Positions 1 through 27,051 of a stretch of 27,885 nucleotides of DNA are shown here, piece after piece. Made by a program: the position numbers and the translations under genes. Position 1 is the stretch's first letter. Each line of letters begins with the position of its first letter. The stretch is from a virus. The DNA lies in the IMG/VR virus record IMGVR_UViG_3300046529_000375, positions 1 to 27,885 of that record; one strand, 5' to 3'. Below the pieces are notes generated by a model that was given only the letters and a program-made list of their open reading frames with translations, was not told the origin of the DNA and ran no database searches.

Positions 1-185
1 ATTCGCTTGGCGACCTGAATGCCTCCGAGGCCGGATGGAATAAAGAGGTGAGCGCCTCGGCGGGGACCCAGACGGTTGAGGATATGTGGGTGATGGCGGA
101 GTATACTCCTGGCGTGACGGCTGGGGTCGGGGCTCAGATTGGCGACGTGATGTATGCTCCGAAATGGCGCAGAGGATGGAACTGA
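1..185 (+). CDS. 3' end of an unrecognised phage protein (partial)
   Basis: Codons beginning at position 3 are open to a TGA at 183-185, giving about 60 C-terminal residues that end in WRRGWN. The segment contains EDMWVMAEYTPG and GVTAGVGAQIGDV, which read as ordinary protein with no repeats. The start lies outside the window. The stop is one base before the ATG of the next gene (TGA-G-ATG), the junction style used throughout this tail operon, which supports a genuine coding end. I do not recognise the family; its place upstream of adhesin-like genes suggests a virion component, but that is inference only. Confidence 0.6.
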   Translation, partial: SLGDLNASEAGWNKEVSASAGTQTVEDMWVMAEYTPGVTAGVGAQIGDVMYAPKWRRGWN

Positions 186-186
186 G

Positions 187-492
187 ATGTACGGGCTTAG
201 CTCGGTAGCCGGGATTGTCGACTGCGAGGGCAACGTCCGCACGGTCGTCACCGAGCTCTGGCGCTTCCGCTTTCACGTTCACAAGGGCGAGCGCATTTTC
301 GTCGTTCCCGGCCTTTTGGTGCGCGAGCCAGTCGAGTGGGAATTAATACCGTTCGTCATTGCGAGTGCGGAGCAGGCGGTCGCCGATGGCGTCTGGCCAG
401 CGAAGAGCAAGCGGAGCATCGGCCTAAGGGAATCGCGGCGATTGCTCGGTCGCGGTAGAATCGTGGCAAAAGAGCTTTCGCGCGCCGCTTAG
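187..492 (+). CDS. Hypothetical protein, 101 aa
   Basis: Starts at ATG 187, preceded by a purine-rich AGAGGATGGA and directly after the TGA of the upstream gene. An upstream in-frame ATG at 154 would overlap that gene and is less likely. The protein opens MYGLSSVAGIVDCEGNVRT and has an alternating hydrophobic middle (RFRFHVHKGERIFVVPGLLV) followed by a basic tail rich in Arg and Lys (residues about 80-101). No signal peptide, membrane helix or known motif is visible. It sits between the partial gene and the glycine-rich adhesin gene, so a small structural or assembly role is possible. Family not recognised. Confidence 0.6.
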   Translation: MYGLSSVAGIVDCEGNVRTVVTELWRFRFHVHKGERIFVVPGLLVREPVEWELIPFVIASAEQAVADGVWPAKSKRSIGLRESRRLLGRGRIVAKELSRAA

Positions 493-505
493 AGCGGGGA
501 GGCGA

Positions 506-1591
506 ATGGCTCAGGTCTTTCTCACATCTGCGAGCGGAACGTCGTGGACGAAGCCGGGTGACTTCAACGCGACCGGGCATACGATTGATATGCTCGGCTG
601 CGGCGGTCTCGCTTCAGTCTCGGTCGTAGGCTCTGTGTCTGGTCGCGGCGGAATCGGCGGCGGCGCGGGGGCTTTCATGCACGGCGTCTATTCGTCGGGC
701 ACGGTCGGCGCGACCGTCAACTTTGCCGTCAAGTCTAATAATAACGCTGCTAATACTGCGAACGACACGGTCTGGGAAAACACGACGCGCGTCACGGGGA
801 GCTATGTCGCGGCCTCGGGTTGGGTCGGGCCTGCAGCGGGCGGAACGGTCGGCGGACTCGGCGGCAAGGGCAACGCCTCGGGTGTGCTCGGAGCGCCCAC
901 CATTGTCTACACGGTTAGCGGCACGGTCGATGGTGGCAACGGGGGCTCTAATGGGGCCGCCATCCTTGGCGGCGGAGGCGGAGGCGGAGCGGGCGGCCCG
1001 GGAGGCCCGGGGAAGGCGGGCGGCGGCAGCATAACGAATGCGGGTTCCGGAGGCGGTGGCGGTGGCGGATGCAACGGCGGCCTAGCTACAGCGGGTAGTA
1101 CTGTAAGCGGGACGCAGGGGGGCGCGGGCGGCAATGGCTGGCAGGGCACAGGCGGCGGTGCGGTCGGCGGCGGTGTGACGGGGAATATCGGACAATTCGG
1201 TGGCGGCGGCGCAGGCAGCGACGGCAGCACCGGAGTCGTCACGGGCATAACCTTCCATGGCGGCGATGGCGGCGATGACGGCTGGTATAATGGCGGTGGC
1301 GGCCCGCCGCTCGGTGTCAGTCCTAGCGCAATAGGCAACGGTGGTGGCGGAGGCGGAACCGGAGGAACAAGCAACAACTCTAACCCCACGGCAACGCTGG
1401 GCGGCAACGGTGCGAGTTTTGGCGGCGGCGGCGGGGCTTGCGGAGGAGCGCGAGGCACACCGACGACGAACACTCCCGGCACTGGCGCGAGCGGCCTAAT
1501 TGTTATCACTTATGCTGGCGTCGAGGACGGGGGAAGCGGAATAGAGCGGTTCTACTTAGGCCGCGCCAACAGCCAGAACCGGTTCTACTGA
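506..1591 (+). CDS. Glycine-rich tail adhesin-like protein
   Basis: 361 aa, with a strong ribosome site (GGGGAGG) just before ATG 506. The N-terminus (MAQVFLTSASGTSWTKPGDFN, then IDMLGCGG) matches the start of phage glycine-rich domains, where a short beta segment with a Trp-x-x-Pro element leads into GGGG tracts. Residues about 110-330 are dominated by runs such as GGGGGGGAGG and GGGGGTGG. The tail is GASGLIVITYAG, the usual closing strand of this domain class. Known relatives include the receptor-binding tip of phage S16 gp38, whose glycine-rich stretches form packed polyglycine-II helices. By analogy this is a host-recognition tip or a tail-fibre adhesin. The antisense proline-rich reading frame here is only a shadow of the GGC codons. 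Confidence 0.75.
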   Translation: MAQVFLTSASGTSWTKPGDFNATGHTIDMLGCGGLASVSVVGSVSGRGGIGGGAGAFMHGVYSSGTVGATVNFAVKSNNNAANTANDTVWENTTRVTGSYVAASGWVGPAAGGTVGGLGGKGNASGVLGAPTIVYTVSGTVDGGNGGSNGAAILGGGGGGGAGGPGGPGKAGGGSITNAGSGGGGGGGCNGGLATAGSTVSGTQGGAGGNGWQGTGGGAVGGGVTGNIGQFGGGGAGSDGSTGVVTGITFHGGDGGDDGWYNGGGGPPLGVSPSAIGNGGGGGGTGGTSNNSNPTATLGGNGASFGGGGGACGGARGTPTTNTPGTGASGLIVITYAGVEDGGSGIERFYLGRANSQNRFY

Positions 1592-1592
1592 G

Positions 1593-4250
1593 ATGGCGAC
1601 AAATAACATTTTCGTCGTCACTTATGAGCTGACGCCGTATCGGCACCTGCCATTATTGCGGCAGACGCCGGTCGACAGTTCGACTACCCAGATCGCTACA
1701 AGCGCGAACATTCGCGTTATCATCCATGACGTGCCGGTTCCCTCGCGGGCGCTAGCGAGCCGGAATCTCTATCAGGCTGCCGCCCAGGACGTTCCGGCCG
1801 TCGTCGTCGTCCAAGCGGAAACGAATACTAATTTCCTCGGCCGGTTTAGGGCTCCGGTCCACGCGCGATTTGTGCCGGTAACGCTCTGGCATACCGACAC
1901 GGGCGTCCCGCAGGGCGAGACAAATACAAATTTCTTGGGACGGTTTACGCCCACGGCGTACCCGTCGAGGGCCATTGCGGTCGGGCTCTATTGCTCAGGC
2001 GAAGCCGTAGAGGCCCCAGTCGTCATTCAGGCCGAGACGAATGTCGGCACGCTCGGCCGTTTCAAAGCGCCTGCCTACGCCCGCTTTAGCTTTAATACTT
2101 GGGATGCCGCCGTCCCGGCGGTGGAGACCAACACCAGCTTCATCGGCAAGTTCCGCGCGCAAACCTATACGGCGCTCGCGACACATCGCCAGAACGTCCC
2201 ATTTGATCAGAACGAGACGAACACAAATTTCCTCGGCCGCTTCTCCCCGACACCCTATCCATCGCCCGCTATCCGTAGCGCGCTTTATCTATTCACCGAG
2301 GCTGAGGACCCGCCCGTCGTCGCCGCTCAGGCTGAAGCGCCGCCGCACTTCCTCGGGACTTTTGAGGGCTACACATACTCCTTACTCGGACTATTGCGGC
2401 AAGGCACGACAGACGCTGACGTGGCTGAAACGAACGTCAGCTTCATCGGCCGCTATACGCCGACTGGCTACAAGCTCCTCCCCGCGCTACGGCAGAACTC
2501 CGACGCGGTCTCCCCTCCCCAGGCGGTTGCGGCGGAGACGCAGCCGCACTTCTTGGGGCGCTTCAAGGGGCCTGTTCACGCCCGCTTCGCCTATGGCTCG
2601 CTCGACACTGGGGTCCCGCAGACCGAAACGAACATCAGCTTCATAGGACGCTTCAACGCGATCACGCACCGGATCGTGCTCGGGCTCCGGCAGACTATCC
2701 CGTTCGACCAGACCGAGACGCAGCCGCACTTCCTCGGCCGTTACTCTGCCCAACGGTACGCCCTGCTCGCGCCGCTCCGGCAGAATTCGGACAGTATCGC
2801 GCCCAATGCATTCGCTGCTGAGACCAACACGCACTTCCTAGGCCGCTTTACTCCGGCGGCTTATCCTCCGAATGCGCTACGGAGTACGCTGTATCTCACG
2901 ACAGAGTCCGAAGACGTTCCGGTCATTACGCAGGCCGAAACGAACACGAACACTCTCGGCCGCTTCAAGGCTCCGGTCCACGCTCGTTTCCTGTTCAATA
3001 CTTGGGATACCGCGGTCCCTGCGGCAGAAACGAACGTCGGCTTCATCGGCAAGTTTGCCGCACGTACGCATACGGTTCTCGGCGGGTTGCGCCAGAACGT
3101 CCCGTTCGACCAGAACGAGACAAACATTAGCTTCCTTGGGCGCTTCACTGCGCCGAAGCACGTTATTCAGCCAGCGCTCCGGCAAGATACGGCCCTTGAT
3201 GAGCAACAGGAGCTAAACAGTCCTCACTGGGTCGGGCGCTTCCGGGCGCAGGTCCACGCCATCCAGGCGGCGCTCCGGCAAAATCCTGCGGGTGACTTCG
3301 TCACGACAGTCCAGGCGGAGACAAACCCGCATTTTATCGGCCGCTTCCGTCCTACAGCCTTTGCACGCTTCAGCTACAACACGCTCGATACTGGCGTTCC
3401 TGTTACAGATATCGCCAATCCGCCATTTCTCGGCAAGTTCGCGCCACGGACTCATTCGCTACTTTCCACGCTCCGGCAGAACGTCCCAGCTGATACGCAA
3501 CAACGAGAATTAAACGTTGCGAGCGTCATAGGACGTTTCGTGCCGTACCAGCACCGCATCCTGGCGGCTGTCCGGCAGAATGAGGCGAAGGATGTTCAGG
3601 TAGTCGTTCAGGATGAGACTAATACCAACTTCCTCGGCCGTTATACCCCGGCGGCTTATCGCGTTACGGTCTCGCTCCGGCAGAACGTTCCGGCCGACAC
3701 GCAACGCTTTGAGACGAACCCGCACTTCATTGGGCGTTATACGGCAGGCACGTACCGGATCGCCGTCTGGCTGCGGCAGAACCCAGCGGTTGCGGATCAG
3801 CCGGAAACTCAGCCGCACTTCCTCGGGAAATTCAAGGGCGGCCCGCATAAGACGCTCGCGCTGCTGCGGCAGAACGTCGACACCACGAGCCGCCAAGCCT
3901 TTACCGCGGAGGCGCAGCCGCATTTTATCGGCCGTTACGTCAGGGGTCAGCACATACTTCTTCCTGGCTTCCGCCAGACCGTCCCGAACGACATCCAGAT
4001 CGGCTACGGCAATGAGCCGCACTTCCTCGGGCGCTTCACGGCTACGCGCTACGAGATTCTGCCTTGGCTGCGGCAGAACCCCGACGTTCGGGTCTTCGTG
4101 CCCACGAGTCCAGCGTGGGTATTCCCGCAGGCCGAGGCGATCTATGCCGCCAAGGTGCAGATCTCGACGGCCTATGAGGGAATGCCGTCAGTTGTCGAGG
4201 CGTGGGACGTGCTATCCTCGCACAGCCCGAATCCGATAGAGCGGGACTGA
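1593..4250 (+). CDS. Large tandem-repeat virion protein (ETN-x-FLGRF repeats)
   Basis: 885 aa, starting at ATG 1593 one base after the previous stop. From residue 76 the protein is almost wholly about 23 imperfect repeats of 30-40 residues. Each begins E-T-N/Q-x-x-F-L/I-G-R/K-F/Y, continues with a stretch having Y/H plus hydrophobics, and often ends L-R-Q-N-V-P before an acidic or Gln-rich linker. The first 75 residues hold a degenerate copy (YRHLPLLRQTP). The last about 55 residues are not repeated. There are few Cys and no membrane segment or signal peptide. I do not recognise a named family. The position between adhesin-like genes, and the recurrence of the repeat at the end of the DUF2612 baseplate gene at 17071, argue for a fibrous or baseplate-attached structural protein. 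Function is inferred, not shown. Confidence 0.75.
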   Translation: MATNNIFVVTYELTPYRHLPLLRQTPVDSSTTQIATSANIRVIIHDVPVPSRALASRNLYQAAAQDVPAVVVVQAETNTNFLGRFRAPVHARFVPVTLWHTDTGVPQGETNTNFLGRFTPTAYPSRAIAVGLYCSGEAVEAPVVIQAETNVGTLGRFKAPAYARFSFNTWDAAVPAVETNTSFIGKFRAQTYTALATHRQNVPFDQNETNTNFLGRFSPTPYPSPAIRSALYLFTEAEDPPVVAAQAEAPPHFLGTFEGYTYSLLGLLRQGTTDADVAETNVSFIGRYTPTGYKLLPALRQNSDAVSPPQAVAAETQPHFLGRFKGPVHARFAYGSLDTGVPQTETNISFIGRFNAITHRIVLGLRQTIPFDQTETQPHFLGRYSAQRYALLAPLRQNSDSIAPNAFAAETNTHFLGRFTPAAYPPNALRSTLYLTTESEDVPVITQAETNTNTLGRFKAPVHARFLFNTWDTAVPAAETNVGFIGKFAARTHTVLGGLRQNVPFDQNETNISFLGRFTAPKHVIQPALRQDTALDEQQELNSPHWVGRFRAQVHAIQAALRQNPAGDFVTTVQAETNPHFIGRFRPTAFARFSYNTLDTGVPVTDIANPPFLGKFAPRTHSLLSTLRQNVPADTQQRELNVASVIGRFVPYQHRILAAVRQNEAKDVQVVVQDETNTNFLGRYTPAAYRVTVSLRQNVPADTQRFETNPHFIGRYTAGTYRIAVWLRQNPAVADQPETQPHFLGKFKGGPHKTLALLRQNVDTTSRQAFTAEAQPHFIGRYVRGQHILLPGFRQTVPNDIQIGYGNEPHFLGRFTATRYEILPWLRQNPDVRVFVPTSPAWVFPQAEAIYAAKVQISTAYEGMPSVVEAWDVLSSHSPNPIERD
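1917..2213 (+). repeat. Higher-order duplication, copy A (297 bases)
   Basis: A block of three repeat units (99 codons) running from ETNTNFLGRFTPTAYPS to RQNVPFDQN. It matches, unit for unit and in identical length, the block at 2820-3116. Shared signatures are a PS/PP-x-A-L/I-LY segment, GRFKAP-x-x-ARF-x-FNTWD-x-AVPA, and RQNVPFDQNETN at the junction. This points to an ancestral segmental duplication. Confidence 0.75.
2820..3116 (+). repeat. Higher-order duplication, copy B (297 bases)
   Basis: Second copy of the three-unit block, from ETNTHFLGRFTPAAYPP to RQNVPFDQN, 99 codons. It pairs with 1917-2213; the order of the three unit types and the spacing between them are the same, while individual residues have drifted. 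Confidence 0.75.
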
Positions 4251-4251
4251 A

Positions 4252-4578
4252 ATGCACGGAACTATAAACGTCAATCCGGTCGACGCGGGCTCTTTCCCGT
4301 TGCAGACGACGTTGCTTCTGCAGGGAAGTTTCATCGTCACCGAAACGGGGCAGCTCGCCGACCCGACCACGGTGACGCTCTACCTCACCGCGCCGAACCA
4401 GCCGCAGCAAGTTATCATTGGCGGCAGCATCGTTCGCGCCAGCCTCGGCGTGTACACCTACACGCTCACGCCGACCGATTCGGGCGTCTGGCAGGGGACG
4501 TGGCAGGGAACGGGTGCGGTTACGGCAACGCGGGACTTTTCGTTCTCGATACTGCCGTCGTCGAATATTCCGGGATAG
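4252..4578 (+). CDS. Small beta-rich phage virion protein
   Basis: 108 aa, ATG 4252 one base after the stop of the repeat gene. The sequence alternates short strands: LLLQGSFIV, TVTLYLTAP, GVYTYTLTPTDSGVWQGTWQGT and RDFSFSIL. This resembles the immunoglobulin-like or BppU-like small proteins seen between phage tail-fibre genes, where a line such as GVYTYTL-x-P-x-x-x-G-x-W marks the fold. No catalytic motif is visible. It probably decorates the virion or helps assemble a fibre. The family call rests on pattern only. Confidence 0.6.
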   Translation: MHGTINVNPVDAGSFPLQTTLLLQGSFIVTETGQLADPTTVTLYLTAPNQPQQVIIGGSIVRASLGVYTYTLTPTDSGVWQGTWQGTGAVTATRDFSFSILPSSNIPG

Positions 4579-4583
4579 AGACG

Positions 4584-5450
4584 ATGACGACCCGCAGACC
4601 CAACAAACCCTACTCATGGAGGTCTGTATCTACGCAAGCAGCGAGCGGCGGTAAAACGTCGCCTGCGCCGCCTTTTGTAGGACCGGGGGACATCGTGTCG
4701 GGCGCTACGGTCTGGGTCGGGTTGCGCGGGTATAGCAACGCGGCTTCCACGGGGACAACAAAAGCCGTTAAGCTACGCCGCGATAGCGATAACACGACCT
4801 CGGACTTTTTTATTTTGAACAATGGGTCGCTGGATGTCGCCTCTGTCGCATTGTTCGCTGGCGCGGCGATTCTATTTGTCGATACGCTCTACGATCAGAC
4901 TGGCAACGGGAACCATCTAGTTCAAGCGACTCTGGCAAAGCAGCCGAACCTAGTGCTTGGAGGTCTTGGCACGCTGCCGTGCATGACCTTTAATGGAACG
5001 CAGTGGATGCAAAATACCACAGCCGCGCTACTCGATGGATTTTCAGCTTCGGCGGTTACTGAGCGAGAGATAGCCGGTCGAGGAGCGCAAAACATTATCT
5101 TCAGCTTCGACATTTCCGCAATAATGGGCTTTCAGGCTTCTAATGACACAATCTTTATTGGCAATGAAGAGGTTTTCGGGACCGGGGCTGATGGCGTATG
5201 GCACGCGATCCAATCAGTGAATACCGCCCCGGGTGGGGCGGACATGACGCTTAATATTGACGGTGTAGTGACGCATGGGCCGCATGGCTTCGGCACCAAC
5301 ATAACCGGATTTAGCGTCGGAATTTATGTAGATTTTTTCAGCGGCCCGCTCAATGGGAAATTAGCTGAATTGGGCACATGGCAGACGGAGTTCTCATCTA
5401 GCGACCAGAATAGCATCCGCGCCAATCAAGCTGCTTATTGGGGAATTTAA
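4584..5450 (+). CDS. GH54-like / LamG-like carbohydrate-binding tail protein
   Basis: 288 aa from ATG 4584, six bases after the previous stop; an in-frame ATG at 4500 would overlap the upstream gene by 79 bases. Residues about 45-116 match the opening of alpha-L-arabinofuranosidase B (GH54): GLRGYSNAAS, then KAVKLRRDSDNTTSDF, then LYDQTGNGNHLVQAT at 102-116. The later half (residues about 165-288) reads as a concanavalin/LamG-type sandwich, with FDISAIMG, DGVWHAIQSV, LNIDGVV and GKLAELGTW. The protein is much shorter than GH54 enzymes (usually near 500 aa), so the active site may be incomplete and sugar binding is more likely than cleavage. It probably contributes to host-surface recognition. 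Confidence 0.7.
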   Translation: MTTRRPNKPYSWRSVSTQAASGGKTSPAPPFVGPGDIVSGATVWVGLRGYSNAASTGTTKAVKLRRDSDNTTSDFFILNNGSLDVASVALFAGAAILFVDTLYDQTGNGNHLVQATLAKQPNLVLGGLGTLPCMTFNGTQWMQNTTAALLDGFSASAVTEREIAGRGAQNIIFSFDISAIMGFQASNDTIFIGNEEVFGTGADGVWHAIQSVNTAPGGADMTLNIDGVVTHGPHGFGTNITGFSVGIYVDFFSGPLNGKLAELGTWQTEFSSSDQNSIRANQAAYWGI

Positions 5451-5773: not shown

Positions 5774-7006
5774 GTGGTCGTCACCAGAACGTTTTCGCAG
5801 ATTCCGCAGCAATCCCCGCCGCCCGCGCTGAGCGACACGCTTGTAGGTGTAAAGGCTGGAATAGATGCCCGCTGGGCACTCAGCGCGGTCGGGCAGACGA
5901 CGAATCCCGGCGTCCAAATCGCATCGATTAAAAATGACGGCGTTACCGATGACCAGCCCGTCATCCAGGCGGCCCTTAATGCGCTCCCCAATACCGGAGG
6001 TACCGTTCTTATCGTTCCCCCGACGGGCAGTCCGGGACCGTGCCTTATCAAAAATACTATCAACCTGGGCAATGGGAGTACCGGGTTTGCCTCGACGAAA
6101 AGCGGGATGAAGCTGTGCGGCGTGGGAATACCCGACGCGAGGACTTTCCCCGGCTATATCTTCAGCGGCATTGTCTTGTCATGGGGAGGCGCTGCTGGCG
6201 GGACGATGATCGCGGTGAAGGGTCCATTAGGTGCGTGGGGTATCGAGAACATATCTGCGGAGTGCAATATCAGCGCGGCCATCGGCCTGCTCGTGACGTC
6301 CGGGCATGACGGGAGCGTCGTCAACTTCACTACGGACCAATATACCGCTGCGGGCATCAAAACAAACTGTGTCGAACCGTTCGGGGCTTTGTTCAATACC
6401 GACGCGAACCATAATTATTTTCTGAACATCCGGACGATTGGAGGCGCGGCGGGATCGGACGGCATTTTTCTGGACGGCTGCCCGTCTGGCGCGGCGAACT
6501 CGGATTTCAACGTTTTCGTCAATGTGTTTGCCAACCAGCCATCTACCGGGTCGGCTATCCACTTGAAGACCTGCGACAGCAACACGTTCATCGGTTGCCA
6601 GTTTTTGACTCAAGGACCACCGGCCCCAGCTCTCTTGTTCGATTATACGGGGCCTGGAGGCATCTTCCCGGTCTCCAACGCCTTCTTCGCCTGCACGGTC
6701 GGCAATCCCGCCGCGCCGATAGCCGCAAATCTTGGGTCCCCTGGGGCCCCTTACGGCTACTACAACCGCTTGTTCATGACGAACGCGAACGGCGAACCAT
6801 TCGTCAACCTTCCCGGCCTCAGCAACGGATTTATGGCTACTGTAACCGTTGCAAACCTGCCTCCTGTTCCATTTGAGGGACTGGAATTGGTTATAAGCAA
6901 TAGCAATACGAATACTCCCGGGGCGACGGTCTCTGGTACGGGCGCGTTTAAGGTCTTAGCCGCCTACAGCGGCGTGAGCTGGCGAGTCGTTGTGGATTTA
7001 AGCTGA
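5774..7006 (+). CDS. Pectate-lyase-fold tail spike candidate
   Basis: 410 aa from a GTG start immediately after the TAG of the previous gene, with GGGGAG upstream. Residues 18-38 (LSDTLVGVKAGIDARWAL) look like the short N-terminal linker used by phage fibres for virion attachment. Residues about 52-85 carry the Pectate_lyase_3 signature: IKNDGVTDDQPVIQAALNA, then GGTVLIVPP. The following 250 residues have the short Asn/Gly-turned strands of a right-handed beta helix, for example NHNYFLNIRTIGG, SDFNVFVNVF and SNTFIGCQF. The last about 70 residues form a separate beta domain. Such proteins are tail spikes, many with depolymerase activity against capsule or O-antigen. No catalytic residues can be assigned from sequence alone. 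Confidence 0.75.
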   Translation: MVVTRTFSQIPQQSPPPALSDTLVGVKAGIDARWALSAVGQTTNPGVQIASIKNDGVTDDQPVIQAALNALPNTGGTVLIVPPTGSPGPCLIKNTINLGNGSTGFASTKSGMKLCGVGIPDARTFPGYIFSGIVLSWGGAAGGTMIAVKGPLGAWGIENISAECNISAAIGLLVTSGHDGSVVNFTTDQYTAAGIKTNCVEPFGALFNTDANHNYFLNIRTIGGAAGSDGIFLDGCPSGAANSDFNVFVNVFANQPSTGSAIHLKTCDSNTFIGCQFLTQGPPAPALLFDYTGPGGIFPVSNAFFACTVGNPAAPIAANLGSPGAPYGYYNRLFMTNANGEPFVNLPGLSNGFMATVTVANLPPVPFEGLELVISNSNTNTPGATVSGTGAFKVLAAYSGVSWRVVVDLS

Positions 7007-7007
7007 A

Positions 7008-7733
7008 ATGCCCATCGTCCCGACGCAATCTAACGCACAGGCGATGCTCAAGAGTTTCCTTGCGAGCATCCTTCCGAGTGATGTTGCCATCGTAACCGCA
7101 CAGCAGAACCGCGTCGCCGAGCCTCAATCACCGAGTTTCGTAGTGATGACGCCGATCCGCTTCACGCGGCTGCGGACGAACATCGCGACCTACGCGGACG
7201 CCCGCTTCACCGGCTCAATCTCCGGCTCCACACTTTCGATATCTGACCTCACGTCAGGGACAATCGGCGTCGGCTCGACAATCTTCGGCAGCGGCGTTTT
7301 TGCCAATACGCGAATCACCGGAATCGGCTCGCTCCCGGACACATGGGTCATATCGCCGATCCAGAACGTTTCCTCGCGCGTACTCGCGGCCGGAACTAAA
7401 ACGTGGGAGCAGGGAACGGAATTAGCCGTTCAGTTAGACTTTCACAGCGCCGATACGTCGCTCGCGGGAGACTACGCGCAGACGGTCACGACCATGTTCC
7501 GCAGCTCCTATGCGGTGGAGCAGTTCGCGAGCCAGACCCCAGCGTATGACATCACGCCGCTCTACGCGGACGACGCCAGGATGGTCCCCTTCATCAACGA
7601 GAGCCAGCAGTGGGAGTGGCGCTGGGTTGTCGAGGCTCGTGTTCAGGTGAACGACGTGGTAACAATTCCTCTCCAGTTCGCCGATTCTCTGGAGGTGGAC
7701 GTTGTAAGCGTCGAAGCCTCCTACCCGCCGTAA
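7008..7733 (+). CDS. Tail terminator (neck) protein, LIC_12616-like, with inserted domain
   Basis: 241 aa, ATG 7008 one base after the previous stop. The N-terminus (residues 8-60) contains SFLASILPSDVAIVTAQQNRVAEP and FVVMTPIRFTRLRTN, matching the phage neck terminator family often annotated as LIC_12616 or gp12-like. The C-terminal half (QLDFHSADTSLAGDYAQTVTTMFRS, then TPLYADDARMVPFINESQQWEWRW) is also typical. Between them, residues about 67-129 form an inserted module, TGSISGSTLSISDLTSG, not needed for the family core and repeated in two other tail genes here. It should cap the tail tube and join it to the head. Its place directly before the sheath gene fits. Confidence 0.75.
   Translation: MPIVPTQSNAQAMLKSFLASILPSDVAIVTAQQNRVAEPQSPSFVVMTPIRFTRLRTNIATYADARFTGSISGSTLSISDLTSGTIGVGSTIFGSGVFANTRITGIGSLPDTWVISPIQNVSSRVLAAGTKTWEQGTELAVQLDFHSADTSLAGDYAQTVTTMFRSSYAVEQFASQTPAYDITPLYADDARMVPFINESQQWEWRWVVEARVQVNDVVTIPLQFADSLEVDVVSVEASYPP
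7206..7394 (+). repeat. TGSIxGTTL module, copy 1 (in tail terminator)
   Basis: Codes for about 63 residues with FTGSISGSTLSISDLTSG, GVGSTIFGSGVFANTRITGIG and WVISPIQNV. It is the most divergent of three copies; the others are at 8209-8421 and 16133-16352. Confidence 0.7.
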
Positions 7734-7743
7734 GGGGAAAGCG

Positions 7744-9480
7744 ATGACGACGATTCCCGCGAATGAGCTAGTTTCCGTCGTTCCGAGCGTCCTGGCGGCT
7801 GGAGGCGAGGCCCTTGATGTTATCGGGCTGTTCCTGACGACAAACACGCGGGCCCCGGTAGGCGCTGTCCCGAGCTTCCCCAACGCGAGCGCGGTATCGA
7901 GTTATTTCGGCCCGACCTCAAACGAGGCGGCATTGGCCGCGATCTACTTCGCTGGCTACAACGGGGCGACCAAGCTCCCAGCCGCATTGCTCTTCGCGCA
8001 GTTTCCGGTCTCCTCGGTCAGTGCCTATCTCCGTGGCGGCAATGTTTCCGGTGTCTCGCTCGTAACATTGCAGGGCTATAACGGCGTTCTGGCGTTGAGC
8101 ATCGATGGCTCGCTGAAGTCTGCAAATATAAACCTAGCGACGGCGACGAGCTTCTCGAACGCGGCCTCAATTATCGGCAGCGCGCTTGGTATCCGGGGGG
8201 CCCAGACTGCTTCAGTGACAGGGAGCATCGGCGGGACGACGCTTAACGTCACGAGCCTTATCAGCGGCAACCCGCTAGCGGCTGGGCAGATTGTCTCCGG
8301 CACGGGGGTCACGGCGGGAACGTATATTGTCCAGCAGCTTACCGGCACCACTGGGGGTGTCGGGACCTATCAGGTCTCGCCATCGCAGACGGCTGGGCTG
8401 CAAACCTTAACGATTTACGCCGCAGGCGCGAGTTATGACAGCCAATCGGGCGGCTTTATCATTGTTTCGCCGACGTCCGGGGCTAGCTCAACAATCACCT
8501 ATGGATCTGGCGCGCTTGCGACGAGCCTATCCCTCACGCTTGCGGGCGGAGCGGTTACCTCTCAGGGCGCGATAGCGCAAACAGTCACCAGCATCGCTGC
8601 CTTTATGAATGCGGTCACTAACGTCACTACGAATTGGGTGACGTTCATGGCCATCTTTGACCCGGACGTCTCGCTTGCAACATCGAGCAATACGGCGAAG
8701 CAGGCGTTCGCAGCGTGGAAGGACTTGCAGAACGACCGCTACGCTTACATCGTTAGCGATCCAGACGCCTCGCCGACGACGACTGTGCCGGCTACGGCCA
8801 GCCTCGGGCAGGTCCTCGCGGGCAACGGCGACTCGGGGTCGTTCTTGGTCTATGAGCCGACGGGCGTGAATATCGCAGCATTTGTCTGCGGTGCAGCGGC
8901 GGCTATCAACTTCGATGAGACGAACGGCCGGATCACCTTCGCCTACAAATGGCAAGACGGCCTTACGGCAGCAGTCTCCGACGCAACGACGGCGCAGAAT
9001 CTCCTAGACAACGGCTATAATTTCGGCGGCGCATATGGAGCGGCAAACCAAAACTTCGTCTGGCTGCAGAACGGCCAGGTCACCGGAGATTTTGAGTGGC
9101 TGGACTCTTACATAAATCAAATCTGGCTTAACAACGCGCTCCAACTCGCGCTGCTTGACCTTCTCCAAAATGCTCCGGCGATTCCCTATGACCCGGCTGG
9201 GCAGACGCTCATCGAGCAGGCGCTATCGGACCCGATCAACGCCGGGCTCAACTTCGGTGCGTTCGCACCCGGCTCCGTATCGAACTCGCAGGCGGCGCAG
9301 ATCAACGGCGCGGCTGGAGCGCAGGTTAGTGACAGCCTTCAGGCGCAGGGCTACTACTTACAAGTCCTCCCAGCCTCGGCTACTGTCCGGGCGGCGCGCG
9401 GGAGCCCACCGATAAATTTCTGGTATCTTGACCGTGGCTCGATCCAGCAGATCACGATGGCCTCGATAGCGGTCCAATAG
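7744..9480 (+). CDS. Tail sheath protein (DUF3383 family)
   Basis: 578 aa with GGGGAAA before ATG 7744. The start, VSVVPSVLAAGGEALDVIGLFLT, then FPNASAVSSYFG, YFAGYNGATKLPAALLFAQF, is the DUF3383 signature. This family provides the contractile sheath in Bcep781- and Pam3-like myophages. The C-terminal part has SDPINAGLNFGAF and GYYLQVLPASATVRAARGSPPINFWYLDRGSIQQITM, the conserved closing region. Residues about 156-226 are a TGSIGGTTL module of the kind also in the terminator and J-like proteins. The tail tube gene follows after 11 bases. It forms the contractile outer cylinder of the tail. Confidence 0.88.
   Translation: MTTIPANELVSVVPSVLAAGGEALDVIGLFLTTNTRAPVGAVPSFPNASAVSSYFGPTSNEAALAAIYFAGYNGATKLPAALLFAQFPVSSVSAYLRGGNVSGVSLVTLQGYNGVLALSIDGSLKSANINLATATSFSNAASIIGSALGIRGAQTASVTGSIGGTTLNVTSLISGNPLAAGQIVSGTGVTAGTYIVQQLTGTTGGVGTYQVSPSQTAGLQTLTIYAAGASYDSQSGGFIIVSPTSGASSTITYGSGALATSLSLTLAGGAVTSQGAIAQTVTSIAAFMNAVTNVTTNWVTFMAIFDPDVSLATSSNTAKQAFAAWKDLQNDRYAYIVSDPDASPTTTVPATASLGQVLAGNGDSGSFLVYEPTGVNIAAFVCGAAAAINFDETNGRITFAYKWQDGLTAAVSDATTAQNLLDNGYNFGGAYGAANQNFVWLQNGQVTGDFEWLDSYINQIWLNNALQLALLDLLQNAPAIPYDPAGQTLIEQALSDPINAGLNFGAFAPGSVSNSQAAQINGAAGAQVSDSLQAQGYYLQVLPASATVRAARGSPPINFWYLDRGSIQQITMASIAVQ
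8209..8421 (+). repeat. TGSIxGTTL module, copy 2 (in sheath)
   Basis: About 71 residues: [54 protein letters not shown]. It closely resembles copy 3 at 16133-16352 and interrupts the DUF3383 sheath sequence. Confidence 0.75.
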
Positions 9481-14998: not shown

Positions 14999-16432
14999 AT
15001 GGCAGACACAAACGTCCCGTCCGTCTCGTTTAACACCGGCCTGGGCTTCATCGCGCCGACTGGGCCCGCCATCCTCGCGGGCATTGAGGCGGACATCAAC
15101 GCCGCATTCGGCTCGAATCTCGACTTCAATTTGAACACGCCGCAGGGTCAACTCGCCTCCTCGTGGGGCGCAATAATCGCTAACGCCGACCAGATTTTCG
15201 TCTACTACAGCAATCAGGTGGACCCGGCTTTCGCCTCTGGAAGGTTTCAGGACGCTATCGGCCGCATCTACGCCATGACACGGCTTCCGGCGATTGCGAC
15301 GTCGCTTAACGTGACGTGCCTCGGCCTTACGGGTGCAGTCATCCCGCTCGGCTCGCTCGTCCAAGACCCTGCCGGGAACGTTTACTCGTCGAGCGGGAGC
15401 GCGACGATAGGCGCGAGTGGCACGGTCGGCGTGACCTTCATTTGCACCGTAGCTGGCCCCATAGGCATCCCGTCCTCGGTCTCGATTTTCCAAGCTGTGG
15501 CGGGCTGGGACTCGGCGCTCGTCATCTCTGGCGTTGTCGGCCAGGACGTAGAGAACCGCACGCAATTCGAGCAGAGGCGGCTCGCTTCGGTTGCGGGAAA
15601 CTCATTCGGTGCCGTCGGCTCGATCATCGGGGCGGTCGCTGCAGTCCCAGGGGTTGTCGACTACTACGGGCAAGACAACGCGACCGGAGCGAATCTGGTC
15701 ATCGGCGACATCACTATCCCGCCCGGTAGTTTCTACATTGCCGTCGCGGGTGGCGACCCCACCGCCGTAGCTGAGGCCATCTTCTCAAAGAAAGCGCCCG
15801 GTGCGGGGATGGTCGGCAATACGACGGTGACGGTCTATGATACCAACCCCCTCCTTTCTGTTCCCGTCCCGTATCAAATTACCTACGAGATTCCCGCCGA
15901 CTTGCAGATCATGTTCGCGATACAGATCGCAAACAGCGCGCAAGTCCCGCCGGACGCCGGGACGCTGATACAAAACGCCGTTATCGCGGCCTTTGCTGGT
16001 GAGGACGGCGGGCCGCGCGCGCGTATTGGTTCAACGCTCTATGCCACGCGCTACGTCGCACCAATCAATGCGCTCGGGGCATGGGGGCAAGTTACTAGCA
16101 TCCAGATTGGTTCGCCGAACACGCCCGGTGCAGTCATTACCGGCTCTATCGGCGGCACGACGCTGACCGTCTCGTCTATCATTTCCGGTACTATCGGGCT
16201 TGGCGACCATCTCTTCGGTACGGCGGGCGGGACGGGAGCCATCCTCGACGGGACACGCATCGTTAGCTTCATTACCGGGACCGGAGGAACCGGGACATAT
16301 CTCGTTAACGAGACGCAGACCGCGCCAACCCAGCAGATAATAACTGCGCAAGCGAGCCAGACGAAGGTAAACGTGGGGATTGACCAAGAGCCCACGGTAT
16401 CTGCCGCTGACATAGCTGTGTCCACGACATGA
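14999..16432 (+). CDS. Baseplate J-like wedge protein with inserted module
   Basis: 477 aa, ATG 14999 one base after the previous stop. The N-terminus ([28 protein letters not shown], then [52 protein letters not shown]) is diagnostic of the baseplate J/gp47 family. Middle elements include [19 protein letters not shown] and [15 protein letters not shown]. Residues about 379-451 form a TGSIGGTTL module near the C-terminus, just before the family's closing strand ([21 protein letters not shown]). It forms the wedge core with gp25-like and DUF2612 proteins. The stop overlaps the next ATG (ATGA). Confidence 0.9.
16133..16352 (+). repeat. TGSIxGTTL module, copy 3 (in J-like protein)
   Basis: About 73 residues: [57 protein letters not shown]. 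Close to copy 2 in the sheath gene at 8209-8421. Confidence 0.78.
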
Positions 16433-17325
16433 CCGGGCCTCCTTATCCGCCACCCGCGAACCCGGCTTCGCCGTTTGATCCGTGGACGACGGTCATCTCG
16501 CAGTATGCGAACTCGCCGACGCTCGACGCGCTGATTTTGTCGTTCAACGCCGCCGTCGACCAGACGGAGAATATTGATAATTTCTACGACATGATCTGGA
16601 ATATCCAGACCGCAGAAGGCTTCGGCCTCGACGTTTGGGGCCGCATCGTCGGCGTGTCGAGGACGGTCCAGCTTCCCCTCATCGGGACTTCATACTTCGG
16701 CTTTAACGAGGCGGGTAGCTGGCAGAGCTTCACGGGAAGCGTCGGCGGCATAGGCGGCACGTTCTTTAGCGGCGGCATTCTGTCTCAGAGCGTCAGCCTC
16801 GGCGATACGCAGTACCGGCAGCTTATTCTAGCGAAGGCAGCGGCTAACATTTCCGATGGGTCAATCGAATCCATCAACGAAATACTCCTGACCTTGTTTG
16901 CTGGCCGGGGGGACGCCTACGTCATCGACGGGCTTAACATGACGATGACGTACCGTTTTCTGTTCACACTTACGCCTATCGAGACAGCGATTGTCGCCCA
17001 GACCGGGATTCTGCCGCAGCCCGTCGGCGTTGCTATCAATATTCAAATGGGACCGGTTGTCATCGCAGTAGAAACGCAACCGCACTTCATCGGGCGCTTC
17101 AAGCGGACGGAGCACCGCATCCCGGGCAGGCTGCGGATGACCGACTATCGCGCTGACGTGGTAGTGGAGACAAATCCAACGATGCCGCTGAGGTCTAGAG
17201 GAGCGGGCTGGATTCAGCTGCCTCGCCCGAGGTACCTATACACTGTTGGCGGGAGCGCTACCGATTCCTCTGGCAGCGCCTCTGGCAGCTTTATCATCCC
17301 AGGATGGAAGTCGGTGAAACCATGA
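16429..17325 (+). CDS. DUF2612 baseplate protein with C-terminal ETQ repeat
   Basis: 298 aa, ATGA overlap with the J-like gene. Residues about 22-80 ([57 protein letters not shown]) are the DUF2612 signature, a baseplate protein corresponding to the gp48/gpI-like wedge end. Residues 83-125 include [15 protein letters not shown]. The family normally ends near residue 200-210 ([11 protein letters not shown]). Here residue 215 begins [18 protein letters not shown], a copy of the repeat that fills the protein at 1593-4250, and a second partial copy (VETNPTMPL) follows. The last about 50 residues are Gly/Ser-rich. The added tail may link the baseplate to the repeat protein. Confidence 0.82.
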
Positions 17326-25557: not shown

Positions 25558-25812
25558 TCATGGCGCGATGCAAGTCACTCTGACCCCAGAATGGACACCA
25601 ACGCTCATCACCTCGGCTCCGAGCGTCACGGCGCAGAGTTGCGTTAGCGCTTCTTGAAACTGTTGTTTTTGTCCAGCGTGAGTGGCGAAGAAAGCGACAA
25701 TCTTTTCGACCTCGATGATGCCCTCACTTTCGATAGTGAAGGCATAAAGGTCAGTATCGCCAGGATTGACCGGGCACCGAGCTCTTACTTGAATTTCGTA
25801 GACGTTCCTCAT
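25558..25812 (-). CDS. Small T-fold-like protein next to queE
   Basis: 84 aa, ATGA overlap with the queE stop. The sequence ARCPVNPGDTDLYAFTIESEGIIEVEKIVAFFATHAGQKQQFQEALTQLCAVTLGAEVMSVGVHSGVRVTCIAP recalls tunnelling-fold enzymes (FolE, QueD and QueF): C-P-V near the N-terminus, the V-E pair (about 35-36), the Q-E pair (about 53-54) and a G-x-H-S-G-V strand near the end. It is shorter than QueD (near 120) and lacks the His triad of the zinc site, so it is either a minimal relative, a regulatory half or unrelated. The operon position supports a role in 7-deazaguanine chemistry. Confidence 0.5.
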   Translation of the reverse strand: MRNVYEIQVRARCPVNPGDTDLYAFTIESEGIIEVEKIVAFFATHAGQKQQFQEALTQLCAVTLGAEVMSVGVHSGVRVTCIAP

Positions 25813-26417
25813 GGGAGTCCGATAATTTTATGCATTTGCAAACTGAGCCTCCACCAAGGATGATCCATGATGTAGGCAATAGCCGCTTCGGTGTTGCTCT
25901 TGCGCTTCGGACCGTCCATCGGCTGCAAAGCGTAATGATCAGCAGCAACGCGCATTTTGACCACTTCAGGATCGTGCCCAATTTGGGGGTAGACCAGCTT
26001 AACTTCGTCGGCGTAAACCTGCATTAGCTGAGCTCCTTGTTTCGGACTCACGCAAAGCCAATCGACGCCAGACGGGGATATCAGCGTACCGTTAGTCTCG
26101 ACGTGCACTCTCAACCCGCGACGATGCACTGCATCAATCAAATTCGCGTCGAGTTGCAACACCGGCTCGCCACCAGTAAACACCACAAATTCACAGCCAT
26201 CGCCCACGCTCTCAATTGCATCAGCCAGCTCTACACAGGCATACCCGCGGCCGCCAATAAACTCGGTATCGCAGAATTTACAGACAGCTGCAGCCCGGTC
26301 CTGCTCGCGGCCGCTCCACAAATTGCACCCGGTGAAGCGGCAAAACACTGCCGCCCGTCCAGCATGAATGCCCTCGCCCTGCAAGGTTCTAAAGATTTCT
26401 TTAACCATGTAGGTCAT
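25809..26417 (-). CDS. queE: 7-carboxy-7-deazaguanine synthase, radical SAM
   Basis: 202 aa. It opens VKEIFRTLQGEGIHAGRAAVFCRFTGCNLW and has Cys31-x14-Cys46-x2-Cys49, the CX14CX2C cluster-binding motif described for Burkholderia multivorans QueE rather than the usual CX3CX2C. Then CDTEF, the FTGGEP motif (80-85) for SAM binding, and VETNG (106-110). Near the end SNTEAAIAYIMDHPWWRLSLQMHKIIGLP fits the family close. QueE makes 7-carboxy-7-deazaguanine from carboxytetrahydropterin, the third step to preQ0. Neighbours are a dpdA-like gene upstream (25-base gap) and a T-fold-like gene downstream. Confidence 0.9.
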   Translation of the reverse strand: MTYMVKEIFRTLQGEGIHAGRAAVFCRFTGCNLWSGREQDRAAAVCKFCDTEFIGGRGYACVELADAIESVGDGCEFVVFTGGEPVLQLDANLIDAVHRRGLRVHVETNGTLISPSGVDWLCVSPKQGAQLMQVYADEVKLVYPQIGHDPEVVKMRVAADHYALQPMDGPKRKSNTEAAIAYIMDHPWWRLSLQMHKIIGLP

Positions 26418-26442: not shown

Positions 26443-27051
26443 TCAGGGTTCCCACTTGAATCCTATCTGCTGGCGCGCATTCTCAAGTCTTGGCAATGTT
26501 ACTGCATAGCGCGACACGCTTGATCCGTCGAAACTATCGACACCCGCAGCCTCGCACATGTGAATGCGGCGCACACTGTTGACCCGGCCGACATGCAGGA
26601 CGATGCGCTTTTGTCTCGCCACCTTCCCCCATATCGCCATCGTTGCCTCTTTCCACTCAGTTGTCCCGCCGATAAAAATTCCGTCAATGCCATTGATAGG
26701 TTCAATGTCGGCCTCGATCATTCCGTCTTGCACCGCAAGATAATTCGGGCAATCGCCAAGACGCGGCAACCAACTCAGACTGTATTCCAATGAACCGAGA
26801 CCACCGGCAACAATATCCGGCAGTACCACGAAGTCCGAACCCTTCCCCAGCTTGCGATAGGCAGCCAAAAAGGCCGTCGTGTCGAATGAACACTGACGCT
26901 GGAACGCGTGCCAAGCTCCATTGTCCAGCGCATATTTGAACCCCTCCGGGCAGTGAAGGTCTTTAGGCGATACCATAATCCGCCAATCCGCGCGTCGCAA
27001 AACAGCTAGATTGCGCCTGTTTCCAGTTCGACTCGCATAGGCGATCATCAT
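26443..27051 (-). CDS. dpdA: DpdA-like DNA guanine transglycosylase (TGT-related)
   Basis: 202 aa, start ATG 27051 (a second ATG at 27048) with AAGGAG seven bases upstream. Motifs: KYALDNGAWHAF with Asp43, SDFVVLPDIVAGG with Asp79, YLAVQDGM with Gln108, GIFIGGTTEWK (GG at 128-129), LHVGRVNS and AGVDSFDGSSVSRYA with Asp172/Asp175. The G-x-D-x-F-D line corresponds to the catalytic Asp region of tRNA-guanine transglycosylases, while the compact length and 'HVGRVNS' line fit phage DpdA-type enzymes that exchange guanine in DNA for a 7-deazaguanine. It precedes queE in one operon, consistent with DNA modification against restriction. Activity on tRNA cannot be excluded. Confidence 0.78.
   Translation of the reverse strand: MMIAYASRTGNRRNLAVLRRADWRIMVSPKDLHCPEGFKYALDNGAWHAFQRQCSFDTTAFLAAYRKLGKGSDFVVLPDIVAGGLGSLEYSLSWLPRLGDCPNYLAVQDGMIEADIEPINGIDGIFIGGTTEWKEATMAIWGKVARQKRIVLHVGRVNSVRRIHMCEAAGVDSFDGSSVSRYAVTLPRLENARQQIGFKWEP

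Follow-up and report, generated by a model that had tools for sequence, protein, structure and literature searches.

An undescribed ETN-repeat family in a putative surface protein of uncultured tailed phages

We describe a phage protein of 885 residues, REP, that consists for most of its length of an array of short units, here called ETN units, which on sequence comparison appear to form an undescribed repeat family. REP is encoded in the window, by which we mean the whole stretch of DNA analysed (27,885 nucleotides, positions 1 to 27,885 of IMG/VR record IMGVR_UViG_3300046529_000375). With moderate confidence we propose that these uncultured tailed phages carry REP on the virion surface as an accessory protein, and that it most likely forms a flexible fibre of the head or neck. 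Phages whose head and tail modules differ carry the family and a gene cassette linked to it, and neither turned up in the collections of cultured phages and prokaryote genomes that were searched. Features are compiled in Table 1, where L numbers designate the records and contigs used for comparison.

Table 1. Features of the window and of the phage records compared with it
Feature	Position	Strand	Remarks
Small gene	154..492	+	Relative in same L076 slot, 42% over 62 aa, E 4.5e-12
Gly-rich protein	506..1591	+	Abuts REP, its stop a single base from the REP start codon
Repeat protein REP, 885 aa	1593..4250	+	ATG start
REP N-terminal 75 residues	1593..1817	+	Two degenerate half-units, 3.8 and 1.1 bits
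REP array of 23 ETN units, residues 76-838	1818..4106	+
REP C-terminal tail, residues 839-885	4107..4247	+	No repeats
Small protein directly behind REP	4252..4578	+	Conserved in L020 (57%); relatives in L057, L058
LamG-like virion protein	4500..5450	+	Best library match phrog_10356, virion structural protein
Pectate-lyase-like protein	5774..7006	+	Weak matches only
Start of tail module: phrog_1876 gene and DUF3383 sheath	7008..9480	+	Syntenic with L020, L022 downstream of their repeat genes
DUF2612 protein, baseplate wedge, with C-terminal extension	16429..17325	+
DUF2612 C-terminal extension, about residues 206-298 (~92 residues)	17044..17322	+
Single ETN unit within the extension	17071..17169	+	42 bits
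Unrelated-repeat protein, slot downstream of MPF	L076:8597-11476
Unrelated-repeat protein, slot downstream of MPF	L067:8453-10558
Unrelated-repeat protein, slot downstream of MPF	L075:10159-10959
Further records with ETN arrays			L017, L019, L020, L021, L022, L023, L024, L025, L036, L037, L039, L042, L048, L049, L053

A previous sequence-only reading had described REP as about 23 ETN/ETQ-x-FLGRF repeats of 30 to 40 residues, and both figures hold. We counted 23 clear units with the pattern ETN/Q-x-x-F-L/I-G-R/K-F/Y, starting at residues 76, 109, 148, 178, 208, 248, 279, 315, 345, 375, 410, 449, 479, 509, 541, 576, 607, 640, 675, 707, 738, 773, and 806 and spaced 30 to 40 residues apart (roughly 33), besides two weak half-units, both degenerate, at about residues 11-33 and 59-72. 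The consensus of 122 units from ten proteins is ETNPHFIGRFTPTRHAILALLRQNAAADSVPVVV, with most of the information in positions 1-10 and 15. A core of 10 residues, E-T-N/Q-x-H-F-I/L-G-R/K-F/Y, is followed at a distance of about ten residues by L-R-Q-N; hydrophobic residues lie at regular spacing (F6, F10, Y/H15, and L21), and the linker after position 24 is variable in length and sequence and often proline-rich.

The array is not a product of chance, since a profile built from other viruses' units alone, with none from this record, scored REP at 572 bits in 25 domains, whereas the best of 500 residue shuffles of REP reached 7.9 bits with the same profile. Tandem Repeats Finder reported no DNA-level repeat in the gene, the mean pairwise identity of the units is 38%, and in their 10-residue core synonymous sites are saturated (pS 0.73) while the protein is constrained (dN 0.38, dS 2.7). 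These properties mark the array as old and maintained by selection rather than a recent DNA repeat. Units 2-3-4 match units 11-12-13 at 56, 77, and 70% identity, a pairing that we interpret as the trace of a block duplication.

Apart from one artefact, no named repeat or domain family matched the array significantly in Pfam, PHROGs, or NCBIfam, and none of the remaining weak matches in these libraries contained a stretch that passes alone. The artefact concerns the NUDIX-like family PF09296, the sole Pfam match of REP above threshold (24.5 bits versus a cut-off of 22). Here, too, no stretch passes alone, and the best one spans profile positions 28-54 only, while the family domain is contiguous and about 96 residues long, so that the score is a sum of weak repeat matches. 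The ETN unit had no significant profile match in the PDB; its matches to TniQ and to the spike protein PAAR, at E 0.33-0.43, are no better than chance. Searches of the INPHARED phages, tblastn among them, returned no match to REP, to four other arrays or array parts, or to MPF and CxxC, the two genes that accompany the arrays (see below). A set of 84,980 prokaryote genomes, scanned twice, yielded no relative of the ETN unit. A collagen-like fibre was considered and rejected, as glycine makes up 6.3% of the array and the Gly-X-Y triplet pattern was not seen. The earlier remark that no named phage repeat family is known with this signature agrees with every library tested, and the unit-profile search proposed along with it matched no characterised family. 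Of its description of REP as a candidate for an undescribed structural module, the first part stands on the same libraries; the structural role is a reading from gene position.

What shape the units adopt was approached by modelling the last four of them with AlphaFold2. Prediction of consecutive units had been recommended before; it was carried out for these four and gave no usable fold (pLDDT 59.5, pTM 0.16), the low-confidence model showing no strand or helix of note and no helix of four or more residues, and a single-chain run on so shallow an alignment (24 aligned stretches) fits a disordered chain and an intertwined oligomer or trimer equally. A compact repeat fold would probably have shown up. 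Phage fibres are commonly trimeric, and the units might form a rigid, homotrimeric shaft of beta structure, similar to a triple beta-spiral or the T4 fibre, which folds only as an oligomer. The regular spacing of F6, F10, Y/H15, and L21 is consistent with such a shaft, as is the modelling outcome, given that single-chain prediction of these shafts can fail. However, unit lengths of 30 to 40 residues with linkers often rich in proline, the lack of a recognisable 15-residue shaft consensus in the units, and the lack of a PDB profile match make this rather unlikely.

We favour instead a flexible fibre, in which REP would be a long extended chain of ~33-residue units, each with a conserved core and a variable linker, with a folded domain at its N-terminal end that is Gly-rich, LamG-like, SPRY-like, or a beta sandwich. 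Each unit would be one copy of a repeated association motif, and together the units would give many weak contacts with the host surface, other chains, or another virion protein. Several architectures among the relatives are of this kind. N-terminal to the array lie a LamG-like domain in L019 and an SPRY-like domain in L025, names that rest on our reading of domains that Pfam did not report. A beta-rich domain is located inside the array in L025 and L039 and at the N-terminus in L021-L023, L036, and L037, and a Gly-rich domain is fused N-terminally to the array in L048 and L049. The Gly-rich fusion, together with the absence of predicted regular structure in the four modelled units, argues for a surface appendage. 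In the window the folded end domain would be supplied by the separate, abutting Gly-rich gene. The N-terminal 40 residues of its product resemble L048 (z 8.1, reached by 0/2000 shuffles) and L076 (z 16.6), and BLASTP with composition adjustment found no match to either. The window's LamG-like and pectate-lyase-like genes complete the adhesin-like setting that had been noticed around REP.

ETN arrays were detected by pattern and profile scans of IMG/VR in 15 further records of uncultured phages. The independent count is probably nearer 12, since L048/L049, L036/L037, and L025/L039 look like near relatives. Arrays range from 5 to about 28 units, the array gene being single in each record that was searched whole, and they occur in contractile-tailed phages as well as in others whose head modules differ. 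Synteny with the window extends through the tail module in L020 and L022, with identities of matched genes of about 35-70% and 24-58%, respectively; the head and tail genes of all other array records differ from those of the window.

The gene neighbourhood is conserved beyond these close relatives. Eleven records were found through the ETN unit itself and have upstream sequence, and in 10 of them MPF, a jelly-roll-like protein gene, and CxxC immediately precede REP; L021 is the exception. The window starts only 1.6 kb upstream of REP, and the pair, if any, would lie beyond its edge; two window genes upstream of REP have counterparts in L076, in the interval that separates CxxC from another kind of repeat protein. 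The cassette is usually situated among portal, major-head, and connector genes. L036 and L037 share the order terminase, large gene, portal, small gene, MPF, CxxC, REP, small gene, probable scaffold, and major head protein, and in L036 PHROGs confirm the portal (phrog_12082) before REP and the major head protein (phrog_9953) after it. REP directly precedes the major head protein in L025/L030 (phrog_3437 in L030), an order also found in L039, lies one gene ahead of the head-tail adaptor in L017, and is placed between the head protein (phrog_1912) and sheath genes in L022. The head-module positions in L036, L030, L017, and L022 and the linkage to MPF and CxxC point to a head or neck fibre. The earlier suggestion of a decoration protein or a long flexible fibre is a reasonable reading, in keeping with these positions and with the lack of a predicted fold; a baseplate skirt, suggested alongside, is less likely because most relatives adjoin portal, capsid, or connector genes, the single unit on the DUF2612 protein (see below) being the one point for it.

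MPF comprises 161 residues and is predicted to be a jelly roll (pLDDT 73, pTM 0.69). Its top structural matches (Z 8-10) include small jelly-roll coats of viruses and subunits of spore appendages, together with a trimeric cement protein of a phage at Z 8.4 and the turret of a tailed virus at Z 7.9. These likenesses may reflect a common arrangement only; those to cement protein and turret speak for the head or neck reading. The MPF and CxxC genes are adjacent in most of 38 MPF loci (L043-L079). MPF had no match in INPHARED, NCBIfam, Pfam, or PHROGs, and CxxC none in INPHARED, NCBIfam, or PHROGs, and we regard the two as an apparently undescribed, mostly linked gene pair. REP could also be a tape or cement chain running along the particle, each unit sitting on one lattice subunit of the capsid, the MPF decoration, or the tail. 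A conserved repeated motif with variable linkers, the location in the head module, the cement- and turret-like MPF prediction, and the unstructured capsid linker chain of Agrobacterium phage 7-7-1 (PMC12796354) are all compatible with this. Yet unit number differs about fivefold between phages, arrays carry adhesin-like domains, and an isolated unit occurs on the baseplate wedge, which renders a tape distinctly unlikely. It is tempting to speculate that ETN arrays, MPF, and CxxC constitute a modular flexible-head-fibre system, with a jelly-roll base or decoration, a CxxC accessory, a motif chain with exchangeable adhesin domains, single motifs on the baseplate, and a partner common to head fibre and baseplate; as a whole, this tentative scheme is rather unlikely to be right.

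In L076, L067, and L075, which lack ETN arrays, the slot downstream of MPF is filled by other long proteins, whose short repeats are unrelated (Table 1). One locus (L047:7018-7542) encodes a single ETN-like unit, after which come units of a different repeat, the ATQVGFE type. The slot proteins in L053, L024, L017, and L076 seemed by eye to share an N-terminal cap, but this was discarded, as leave-one-out searches gave E 0.08 to 0.24 or did not find it.

A further ETN unit, overlooked in the sequence-only reading, is located far from REP in the C-terminal extension of a DUF2612 protein (Pfam E 1.7e-53; PDB 7kh1 E 7.8e-13). By these matches it is a baseplate wedge protein and belongs with 7kh1 gp17, Pam3 gp23, and GP075 of phage K8. 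In contrast to the window's protein, every complete relative examined ends right after the domain and lacks the extension; long DUF2612 ORFs in L089, L100, and L120 turned out to be artefacts of stop-to-stop reading, with the domain ending as usual. GP075 is present in the K8 virion, where the tail fibre may be its binding partner; when altered at a position four residues before the C-terminal end, it gains binding to LPS core and loses the fibre interaction (PMC9887876). By analogy to this one phage, the grafted unit would be placed at a site where attachment is tuned. The unit on DUF2612, the solved wedge relatives, and the effect of the K8 C-terminus on fibre association and receptor binding lead us to infer a role of the units in attachment, and through the single unit the baseplate would share the binding or docking specificity of REP.

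These observations also bear on the window's own REP, which is perhaps tail-borne, as its gene adjoins tail genes in this lineage and one unit is found on the baseplate. REP might be a side fibre of the tail that docks on the baseplate, its units pairing with the one on DUF2612. This unit is present in a REP phage; the relatives examined lack it and are not known to carry REP, and the K8 data fit. However, REP is found in the head module of most relatives, and the link comes from a single phage, the DUF2612 genes of L020 and L022 lying beyond the ends of their contigs; we consider such a docked tail fibre highly doubtful. It is very improbable that REP is a non-virion protein, produced inside the infected cell or released from it, since several unrelated phages have it within their structural genes and it is fused to adhesin-type domains. 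REP is most likely head- or neck-borne in most phages, judging from gene order, and additionally tied to the baseplate in the window phage.

Accessory head fibres made of repeats have a precedent in phi29 gp8.5 (cited in PMC12796354), a head fibre of supercoiled helix-turn-helix repeats. Both proteins are repetitive, but phi29 gp8.5 is helical, in contrast to the low-confidence REP model. Collagen-like and LamG-like accessory proteins of related myoviruses (L081 and L082) occupy the same slot ahead of the tail module as REP, although their repeat sequence is unrelated to ETN. The head fibres of Caulobacter phage phiCbK and Agrobacterium phage 7-7-1 are long flexible head appendages, as proposed for REP; a likeness in sequence was not apparent, as phage 7-7-1 lacks the ETN unit and INPHARED gave no match. 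The protein forming the flexible capsid fibres of 7-7-1 was reported as unknown (PMC12796354). If REP forms head fibres, it would be a candidate protein for this kind of appendage, and the ETN unit would offer a short motif for the study of weak multivalent phage attachment.

Three further observations concern the window's other genes. Similar Ig-like stretches (GSIGGTTL...GTY.VS..Q) occur in the phrog_1876 gene, the sheath, and the baseplate J protein (7203-7391, 8209-8427, and 16130-16348), and the baseplate J copy matches the sheath copy of L020 (BLASTP, 40% over 62 aa). A second contig, L080, encodes a phrog_1876 protein 100% identical to the window's and begins right of the repeat gene. 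Near the right end, a radical SAM protein (PF04055) and its neighbour are encoded on the minus strand (25809-26417 and 26443-27051); we take the former to resemble QueE and the latter DpdA, which would suggest 7-deazaguanine DNA modification.
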